NCBI GenBank assembly: GCA_036001465.1
Contig: DASYUH010000052.1
Location: 1 to 64,000, forward strand
DNA length: 64,000 bases
Reading direction: 5' to 3'
From: Candidatus Polarisedimenticolia bacterium
Lineage (GTDB): Bacteria > Acidobacteriota > Polarisedimenticolia > Gp22-AA2
Under the pieces are notes generated by a model, which was given only the letters and a program-made list of their open reading frames with translations, was not told the DNA's origin and made no database searches. Each line of letters begins with the position of its first letter. Position 1 is the first letter of the stretch. Positions 20,121-22,866 of the stretch are shown piece by piece. The position numbers and the translations under genes were made by a program.

Positions 20121-20399
20121 ATGGACTCCAAGAAGCCGATGAAAATCCTCAACTTCCCGGCCCGCGTTCCCAGGCCACCCGCTGTGAGCCGAAGCATCGT
20201 TTCGGTCGAGACTCTCCTGGCGGAATGCAGGGGAAGGCAGGCGGCCCTCCGGGACGACGGCCGGCGCCTCATGGCGTCGCTCGATCGGCTGTCGCTCCTG
20301 ACGGAGAACCTGATTCGGGGATCGGAGCGGCTGCGGCATACGCTTCTCCGGCTCCGGAATTGCCGGGTCAGGCCCGGGACGCAGGCCCCTCGGGACTGA
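20121..20399 (+). CDS. Small helical protein, first gene of desulfurase-like operon
   Basis: 92 residues, basic, with a probable coiled coil from about 30 to 75 (VETLLAECRGRQAALRDDG; LDRLSLLTENLIRGSERL). No known domain is recognised. The ATG at 20121 is placed by the promoter 11 bases upstream; an alternative ATG at 20139 would give MKILNFPA. There is no ribosome-binding site at either, consistent with a leaderless message. It ends 10 bases before the desulfurase-like gene, so the two are co-transcribed. Confidence 0.5.
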   Translation: MDSKKPMKILNFPARVPRPPAVSRSIVSVETLLAECRGRQAALRDDGRRLMASLDRLSLLTENLIRGSERLRHTLLRLRNCRVRPGTQAPRD

Positions 20400-20409
20400 G
20401 GCCTAGAGC

Positions 20410-21585
20410 ATGCCGGAACGAATCTATTTCGATCACATCTCCACCACCCCCGTCGCCCCCGAGGTTCTCGAGGCGATGCTCCCTTTTTTCGGGGCCCGAT
20501 TCGGAGTGGCGTCGAGCCTCCATGCCCGCGGCCCGACTTCGCGCCAGGCGATCGATGAGGCGCGCGCCGAGGTGGCTGGGCTTCTCGCCGTTCCCGCCGA
20601 GGAGATCCTGTTCACCTCCTCGGCAACCGAGTCGAACAACCTGGCGCTGAAGGGGATGGCCGCAGCCTCGGGGCGCAGGGGCGGTCACCTGATCGCCCTT
20701 CAGACGGAGCACATCGCCACGCTCCACCCGCTGCGCACTCTCGAGAGACAGGGCTTCCGGGTGACGCTCCTTCCCGTGGATCGGCTTGGCCGGGTCGACC
20801 CGGACGACCTGGCGCGGGCGCTGCGGGACGACACGATCCTGGTGAGCGTGGCGCACGCGAGCGGAGAAATCGGCACGATCCAGCCGTTGGCGGAGTTGTG
20901 CCGTATCGCCCGTTCGCATGGCGTCCCGTTCCACTGCGACGCCACCCTGACGGCGGGAACGCCCGCCTGGCGCGAAACGGCCGACGGCCCGGATCTGGTG
21001 ACCCTGACGTCGCACCTGCTGTACGGGCCGCAGGGGATCGCCGCCCTCCGGGTGCGGAAGGGGCTGCGGCTCCTGCCGCTCATCGAAGGGGGGACTCAGG
21101 AAGGGGGACTGAGGGCCGGAACCGAGCCTCTCGCGGCCGCGGTCGGATTCGGCGCGGCGGCGCGACTGGCGGCGAGGGGGATGGACCGCCGCGACGCGCG
21201 CGCCCGGGAACTGGCCGCGCGGCTGCGGGGGGCGGTCGCGGAGCGCCTCGACGGCCTGGTGTGGACCGGTCACTCCGATCGCAGGCTACCGGGTCACGTC
21301 AGCTTCTGCATCCTGGGAGCCGAGGCGGAGGCCGTCCTGCTCGCCCTCGACGCGGCGGGAATCGAAGCGGCGAGCGGCTCGGCCTGCACCACCGGGGCGC
21401 GCAAGCCGTCCCATGTCCTTCAGGCGATGGGCATCGACCCGGTGACGGCACGCGGGGCGATCACCTTCTCCGCAGGCGAGCTGAACAGGGAGGAGGATCC
21501 CGAGCTTGCCGCGGCGGCGCTCGAGGGCGTGGTGTCTCGCCTGCGCGCCCTGAGCCCCTGGCCCCTTGGACCGGGTCGCACCTGA
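20410..21585 (+). CDS. Cysteine desulfurase-like protein lacking the PLP lysine
   Basis: 391 residues, full length for IscS/NifS class V aminotransferase-fold enzymes and collinear with them: FTSSATESNNLALKG, the cofactor-stacking His101 (TEHIA), Asp177 (FHCDAT) and the persulfide Cys326 in SGSACTTG are all kept. At the invariant SHK position, however, the sequence reads SHLLYGPQG: the codon at 21016-21018 is CTG, Leu203, so the lysine that forms the internal aldimine is absent. The usual Gln after Asp (DAxQ) is also lost (Leu180). It therefore should not be a normal desulfurase. It may be a PLP-independent or regulatory paralogue; the frame is intact, so recent decay is unlikely. GAGG precedes the ATG by about 9 bases. 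Confidence 0.85.
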   Translation: MPERIYFDHISTTPVAPEVLEAMLPFFGARFGVASSLHARGPTSRQAIDEARAEVAGLLAVPAEEILFTSSATESNNLALKGMAAASGRRGGHLIALQTEHIATLHPLRTLERQGFRVTLLPVDRLGRVDPDDLARALRDDTILVSVAHASGEIGTIQPLAELCRIARSHGVPFHCDATLTAGTPAWRETADGPDLVTLTSHLLYGPQGIAALRVRKGLRLLPLIEGGTQEGGLRAGTEPLAAAVGFGAAARLAARGMDRRDARARELAARLRGAVAERLDGLVWTGHSDRRLPGHVSFCILGAEAEAVLLALDAAGIEAASGSACTTGARKPSHVLQAMGIDPVTARGAITFSAGELNREEDPELAAAALEGVVSRLRALSPWPLGPGRT

Positions 21586-22866
21586 TCAGTCGAGGGGATC
21601 GAATACCAGCCCGGTGAGAACCTTCGGGTAGAAATAGGTCGACTTCTGCGGCAACCGGTAGCCCCCCCGGGTGACAGCCATCACCTGCTCCAGGCGCGTC
21701 GGGTTCATGAGCACGCCGATCTGCGCCCGGCCTTCGGCCACGCGGTCGAAGACCTCGCGCCGGTCCTTCACGTAGTCGAGATGGTCCTGCCCGGCCTCGG
21801 CCTCGTGGGTGATCTTCAGGAGATGTTCCAGGACCAGGCGGTGCAGAAGGACCACATCGAGATTCCGAAGCGGCGCGGGGGTTTGCGCCATCTCCGGCAG
21901 GGTCAGTCCCTCCCCTTCCCTCCACTCGGCCAAAACCAGGCGTCCTCCCTCGAGCGCCAGCCCGAACACTCCCGGCCGGTCGCGCCTCGAGGTCATCAAC
22001 TGGAGGAGGGACTCCGGATCCGCGGCCGGGAGGAGCCGGAACAGTCCCGCCATCCGTTCCGCGAAGCGGGCGGGATCGAAGCCGGGCAGGGAGCGCACCA
22101 GGCGATGAATCGGAAAGATCGCGAGGCCCGGGTCCTCCAGGCTGCAGAGAAACACCAGGACGTGCTCCGCATCTCGAAAACCGCGCGCCCGCCGCTCGTC
22201 GCGGTAGGCCAGGGCGGACTCGTATCGATGGTGGCCGTCGGCGATCAGGCACCACTGGCCACGCAGGCGGTCCGCCAGGAAGGCCTTCCGCTCGGCGTCC
22301 TCCACGCGGACGACGCGGCTCCGGGTCCCTTCGAGGTCCCGCGCTTCCACCCCTCGATCCCCCTCGAGCGCCCCGCGCAGGAGACGCGCCACCTCGGCCC
22401 CCGGATCCGGATGCAGGAGGAAGACGGCGCTGAGATGGGTCCGGGTGGCGGCCAGGAGCCGCTGGCGATCGGCCCGCGGGCGGTCGAGCGTCCGCTCGTG
22501 CGGGATGACCGAGCCTGATTCGAAGGGCTCGAGCGTCAGTCGCGCAAAGAAGCCGCGGCGCGCGGCCTCCCGGCCGGACGGATCGCGATAGAGTTGCTCG
22601 CAGGCATAGAACGCGGGCCGGGCGTCACGCGCCAGGGTGCCGTCCTCGACCCAGCGCTGGAGGAGCACCGCCGCGGACTCATACGGATCCACCTCCCCGG
22701 ACGGGCGCGGCAGGTCGAGGTGCACCACGTTGCGGGGGTGGCCGTCGGCCAGGCTCCTGCGCTGCTCGTCCGACAGCACGTCGTATGGCGGCGCCACCAG
22801 GCGATCCATCGAGGCCCGGAGGTGGGGGGCGTAGCACAGGGCACGGAACGGCGAGGCGGCCGGCAT
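21586..22866 (-). CDS. DUF1015 family protein
   Basis: 426 residues, the normal length of DUF1015 proteins. Family landmarks are LVAPPYDVLSDEQR near the N-terminus, PHERTLDRPRADR, the strongly conserved IADGHHRYESAL, and a C-terminal YRLPQKSTYFYPK. The biochemical role is not established; members often lie near serC/serA, but not here. Its stop is directly back-to-back with that of the desulfurase-like gene (TGA/TCA at 21583-21588). It begins 10 bases after the upstream exported-protein gene, so it probably belongs to that transcript. The SD before the ATG is weak. Confidence 0.85.
   Translation of the reverse strand: MPAASPFRALCYAPHLRASMDRLVAPPYDVLSDEQRRSLADGHPRNVVHLDLPRPSGEVDPYESAAVLLQRWVEDGTLARDARPAFYACEQLYRDPSGREAARRGFFARLTLEPFESGSVIPHERTLDRPRADRQRLLAATRTHLSAVFLLHPDPGAEVARLLRGALEGDRGVEARDLEGTRSRVVRVEDAERKAFLADRLRGQWCLIADGHHRYESALAYRDERRARGFRDAEHVLVFLCSLEDPGLAIFPIHRLVRSLPGFDPARFAERMAGLFRLLPAADPESLLQLMTSRRDRPGVFGLALEGGRLVLAEWREGEGLTLPEMAQTPAPLRNLDVVLLHRLVLEHLLKITHEAEAGQDHLDYVKDRREVFDRVAEGRAQIGVLMNPTRLEQVMAVTRGGYRLPQKSTYFYPKVLTGLVFDPLD

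Follow-up and report, generated by a model that had tools for sequence, protein, structure and literature searches.

A lysine-less IscS/NifS homologue with a conserved persulfide cysteine in an order of Acidobacteriota

Introduction

IscS, an obligate dimer, is regarded as the universal route by which sulfur enters from cysteine. The established mechanism of PLP-dependent desulfuration relies on a lysine, a glutamine and an arginine, the residues that are lost in the protein described here. The C-terminal segment of E. coli IscS docks IscU (PMC2854127).

Lysine-less IscS proteins are already known as a kind. In Archaeoglobus fulgidus IscS, the lysine is replaced by Asp, desulfurase activity is missing, and the cysteine ligates a 2Fe-2S cluster on IscU (PMC7585200). 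Its structures include PDB 4eb5, 4eb7 and 4hvk, with 4r5f representing the D199K mutant. IscS1 of Methanosarcina acetivorans, which belongs to an iscSU pair, also lacks the catalytic lysine (PMC7585200). A further set of entries, PDB 9wep, 9wer, 9wew, 9wf8, 9wfb, 9wfe and 9wfy, comprises variants of one 406-aa protein labelled "cysteine desulfurase". In 9wfy, Leu takes the place of Lys, and the Gln, Asn, Arg and Thr sites are degenerate. We infer that 9wfy is the wild type, and the other entries, as far as their sequences tell, are apparently stepwise restorations towards Lys/Gln/Arg/Thr/Ala. A literature search for a publication on the 9wep–9wfy entries found none.

The protein P0001 considered here is encoded in the window, a stretch of 64,000 nt from a Candidatus Polarisedimenticolia bacterium, and was the subject of a preliminary description. 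It is not a singular oddity, given the documented cases of A. fulgidus IscS and M. acetivorans IscS1 (PMC7585200; PDB 4hvk, 4r5f). What is new is the neighbourhood of the bacterial representatives, with iscU and tusA; a literature search for a link between lysine-less IscS and TusA found none.

The protein and its closest described counterparts

20410..21585, + strand: P0001, lysine-less IscS/NifS homologue of 391 aa, with an ATG start and without an internal stop

As had been described, the frame is intact and the product can be aligned with IscS/NifS from end to end. It matches Aminotran_5 of Pfam (E 5e-59) and stays under every NCBIfam equivalog cut-off (376 vs 530.75 bits for NifS). Structure modelling, suggested as a check in the preliminary description, returned the IscS fold. 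The AlphaFold2 model reaches a pLDDT of 91.4 and a pTM of 0.91, with the Cys loop (residues 321–330) as a low-confidence flexible stretch, and a Foldseek search with it retrieved human Nfs1, A. fulgidus IscS and E. coli IscS at a TM of about 0.9. Pfam, AlphaFold2 and Foldseek agree in assigning P0001 to the class V aminotransferase fold.

Like canonical IscS/NifS (E. coli IscS, TIGR03402, TIGR02006), P0001 has the fold, the persulfide cysteine and the pocket His and Asp; unlike them, it lacks the Lys, Gln and Arg. With A. fulgidus IscS (TM 0.9, 40% identity), it shares both the fold and the pattern of change, namely the loss of the Schiff-base Lys (Asp199 in A. fulgidus), of the Gln (DATA) and of the Arg (TLLLTLG), with the persulfide Cys kept. 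The two differ in that P0001 has Leu where the archaeal protein has Asp, and in that the latter lacks a counterpart of Cys300. Furthermore, A. fulgidus IscS was crystallised with IscU and has an SPLY tail, whereas P0001 has a trimmed tail and no iscU neighbour; the pairing with iscU in an operon and the SPLY tail are both missing throughout the window's order. The likeness to M. acetivorans IscS1, as described in PMC7585200, concerns the missing catalytic Lys. The protein of PDB 9wfy (44% identity) resembles P0001 in its HLMYGP (Lys to Leu), DAAP, NREIG and VVFS motifs; unlike P0001, the protein of the 9wep–9wfy series has no Cys300.

Active-site residues

Relatives were collected with profiles run against 396 Acidobacteriota genomes and 294 from Brocadia's phylum, together with a contig scan. 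The residues of 49 lysine-less sequences (Acidobacteriota, Brocadiales and others) were compared with those of 64 lysine-containing homologues. The two groups are defined by column 203, so that this column is not independent evidence, while the other columns are.

21016..21018, + strand: Leu203 (CTG codon) replacing the Schiff-base Lys; Lys in 64/64 lysine-containing and 0/49 lysine-less sequences, as the groups are defined
20947..20949, + strand: Leu180 replacing the DAxQ Gln (PLP O3' Gln); Gln in 64/64 lysine-containing and 0/49 lysine-less sequences
21463..21465, + strand: Thr352 replacing the substrate-carboxylate Arg of VRFSLG; Arg in 63 lysine-containing and 1/49 lysine-less sequences (L056)
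20710..20712, + strand: His101, cofactor-stacking, kept; 48/49 lysine-less, 64/64 lysine-containing
20938..20940, + strand: Asp177, partner of cofactor N1, kept; 49/49 lysine-less, 64/64 lysine-containing
21385..21387, + strand: Cys326, persulfide Cys of the mobile loop; 49/49 lysine-less, 64/64 lysine-containing
21307..21309, + strand: Cys300, gained extra Cys; 46/49 lysine-less vs 7/64 lysine-containing, and 12/12 in the window's order
21403..21405, + strand: Lys332, basic residue gained on the Cys loop; Lys in 46 and Arg in 3 of the 49 lysine-less sequences, mostly Glu in the lysine-containing ones

The alignment confirms the residues named in the preliminary description, namely the retained His101, Asp177 and Cys326 and the replacements Leu203 (CTG at 21016-21018) and Leu180. 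The loss of the substrate Arg (Thr352) and the gain of a second cysteine (Cys300) in P0001 come in addition. At position 203, the lysine-less relatives found mostly have Gln (34 sequences, hereafter Q-type) and rarely Pro, His or Tyr. Two lysine-containing homologues, L143 (G259) and L161 (G472), already have Cys at 300 and score highly with the lysine-less profile; they are possible intermediates.

Because Lys, Gln and Arg are lost together, cysteine desulfuration by P0001 appears very unlikely from its sequence. This supports the earlier statement that the protein would not carry out normal desulfuration although it keeps the mobile-loop cysteine, which is present in every lysine-less sequence. 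P0001 has three lysines in total (81, 217 and 332). Of these, the pocket might be within reach of Lys332 alone, which lies on the mobile loop six residues past Cys326. This made it the sole candidate for a lysine taking over from position 203, a role that three relatives with Arg at 332 speak against.

Conservation and phylogeny

Within the window's order, 12 genomes were found, 8 of family f1 and 4 of family f2. The P0001 gene is intact in all of them and the gene order is conserved; pairwise dN/dS values of 0.13–0.27 demonstrate that the gene is under purifying selection. Residue 203 is never Lys, being Leu in 11 genomes and His in one, which rules out a sequencing error at 21016-21018 and answers the question raised earlier of whether orthologues have Leu at this site or SHK. 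A canonical SHK IscS was also confirmed by sequence in six of the 12 genomes (G000, G001, G008–G011), and P0001 is about 44% identical to the canonical copy.

In a tree without long-branch rows, the lysine-less rows all lie on one side of one branch with weak support (55/90), an outcome compatible with a single lysine-less group, and the window's order forms a clade with 100/100 support. Two separate lysine-less groups in a quick tree were produced by the long rows and became a single side once those rows were removed.

Immediate neighbours of the gene

20139..20399, + strand: 86-aa single-helix protein directly upstream, with a conserved ATG at 20139 and an invariant Cys75
21586..22866, - strand: DUF1015 protein (PF06245, E 4e-72), convergent with and abutting P0001
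16090..19419, - strand: protein of 1109 aa with a PPC domain and seven putative metal-binding repeats of the MopE type, a conserved neighbour in the window's order

The DUF1015 gene adjoins the P0001 gene in 12/12 loci of the order. The gene of the 86-aa protein ends 10 nt before P0001. Co-transcription with this small helical protein, as first proposed, is plausible given the short gap and the conserved order, but it is limited to family f1, where the protein occurs in 8/8 genomes (split between contig ends in G007), against 0/4 in family f2. It is thus an addition in one family and not a general partner of P0001. One helix (residues 15–76) is predicted at a pTM of 0.49, and a Pfam search of the protein gave no match. 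A relationship to ISD11/LYR proteins is unsupported, considering the one long helix, the pTM and the lack of a Pfam match.

Association of the relatives with iscU and tusA

Beyond the window's order, 30/37 lysine-less genes are flanked by iscU, and each of these IscU proteins has the three ligand cysteines. In 23/37 lysine-less cases vs 0/67 lysine-containing ones, a tusA gene of the same orientation lies no more than 1600 nt downstream (Fisher p 9e-14, a value that overstates independence, given that related genomes are counted, the flanks span 1.5–5 kb, and the cases represent about four lineages: Brocadiales, several Acidobacteriota families, Dive96 MAGs and one Planctomycetota MAG). One member of the tusA set was matched to PF01206. 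Lysine-less iscS genes with tusA directly downstream are found at L128, L145–L159, L040, L041 and L056, covering Brocadiales, several Acidobacteriota families and two other lineages. At the last three loci, tusA comes straight after the lysine-less gene without an IscU. The neighbourhood of G095 has a DsrE_2 gene in addition.

In the window's order, neither tusA nor iscU adjoins the lysine-less gene in any of the 12 loci, which rules out tusA as a neighbour partner there. In genome G000, IscU is located at C40, as is the canonical IscS, and the single tusA at C13, beside a ThiI/NFACT-R_2-like gene. The docking tail for IscU includes the SPLY motif, which 34/34 Q-type sequences have and 12/12 sequences of the order have lost. 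In the order's IscU proteins, T, S or H stands at Cys37, so that the first of the cluster-ligand cysteines is missing. Such rows comprise G000 C40:62257-62610 (L175:12219-12629), L092–L102 and L106–L109, and a scaffold with two cysteines is odd in itself. Family f2 has a second IscU, encoded beside canonical IscS, that likewise lacks Cys37. Since the loss also occurs beside canonical SHK IscS (L106–L109, and L019 and L020 of the same class), it was rejected as a change matching the lysine-less protein. With no adjacent tusA or iscU, a cut tail and a Cys37-less IscU, the order does not allow the partners of the relatives to be simply transferred to P0001.

Possible functions

P0001 is probably, by a modest balance of the evidence, a non-desulfurase paralogue of IscS/NifS that has retained the IscS fold and the larger part of the cofactor pocket. 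It would work through Cys326, which either accepts and transfers persulfide or provides a cysteine ligand for an Fe-S cluster. This assumption is based on the residues lost, the conservation of Cys326, His101 and Asp177, the purifying selection, the fold and the neighbourhoods; from these, we infer the loss of desulfurase activity and a relay, with its direction of flow and its partners. The universal retention of the loop cysteine and the linkage of the relatives to tusA and iscU point to the handling of sulfur made elsewhere. In P0001, the sulfur would be made by another protein, with the genome's own canonical SHK IscS producing the persulfide, and Cys326 would take and hand on sulfane sulfur or serve as a ligand during the handling of Fe-S clusters. 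In the lysine-less relatives, the most likely partners are TusA as persulfide carrier and IscU as scaffold. Sulfur might then pass from TusA-SSH to the cysteine of the lysine-less IscS and on to IscU; alternatively, the arrangement may be that of A. fulgidus, in which the cluster on IscU borrows a cysteine of IscS as ligand. The gene of the window's order would have moved out of the iscU/tusA operon and lost part of the docking tail, and the partner step is the weakest part of the relay proposed for P0001. The neighbourhoods of the relatives, with tusA and iscU, agree with the earlier suggestion of a persulfide acceptor or regulator.

A regulator or decoy is an unlikely alternative. P0001 could tune the desulfurase by forming mixed dimers with canonical IscS or by competing for its partners, with Cys326 being incidental or redox-sensing, possibly through a disulfide with Cys300. 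The obligate dimerisation of IscS and the coexistence of a canonical copy speak for it, as do the loss of the iscU/tusA neighbours and of the docking tail in the window's order and the gain of Cys300 in nearly all lysine-less sequences. However, P0001 and the canonical copy are only about 44% identical, which leaves mixed dimers uncertain, and the relatives occur in stand-alone units of lysine-less iscS, iscU and tusA.

Retention of a B6 vitamer for other chemistry, with PMP or PLP held non-covalently or Lys332 acting as the Schiff-base residue, is improbable. Lysine-less fold-type-I enzymes that use PMP exist (ColD/E1 type). His101 and Asp177, together with the cofactor-phosphate residues His202, Arg235 and Thr238, are kept in 12/12 sequences of the order, a stronger conservation than among the Q-type relatives (His202 in 6/37), and Lys332 is conserved in 12/12 as well. 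The conservation of His202, Thr238 and Arg235 makes non-covalent binding of a B6 vitamer by P0001 possible, judged by sequence. Nevertheless, Leu203 can act neither as an acid nor as a base, both the Gln and the substrate Arg are missing, and Arg at 332 in three relatives means that a Schiff base there is not general. The new chemistry that the preliminary description had considered thus finds no positive evidence, Leu being no base and the Gln and substrate Arg being lost too.

There is a slim chance that P0001 serves Fe-S assembly on the Cys37-less IscU of the order in the manner of A. fulgidus IscS, with Cys326 (and Cys300) supplying the missing ligand. The archaeal precedent exists, and an outside Cys ligand would suit a scaffold with T, S or H at Cys37. 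The trimmed docking tail contradicts this assignment, as does the loss of Cys37 beside canonical SHK IscS, which does not track the lysine-less protein. That P0001 is a decaying pseudogene or an annotation artefact is barely conceivable, the loss of catalytic residues notwithstanding, as it is already contradicted by the intact gene in all 12 genomes, the dN/dS of 0.13–0.27 and the conserved synteny.

Implications

Returning to the relay through the loop cysteine, a bolder and rather doubtful extension is that of a widespread bacterial IscS branch independent of cysteine, in which sulfane sulfur of inorganic origin would pass from TusA to the loop cysteine of the lysine-less IscS and then to IscU. 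In the window's order, this system would have moved off IscU and been rebuilt around a new partner, the helical protein being added in one family.

If true, carried sulfur could feed Fe-S and thio-cofactor pathways, given an IscS branch that is conserved and selected, has no cysteine chemistry, and yet keeps its persulfide cysteine and, in bacteria, a link to tusA. Many anammox and acidobacterial genes would then carry a wrong automatic annotation, "cysteine desulfurase". Until now, the A. fulgidus case was an archaeal curiosity; the bacterial sets offer many new subjects and a testable partner, and the interest of the lysine-less family is greater than that of P0001 alone.
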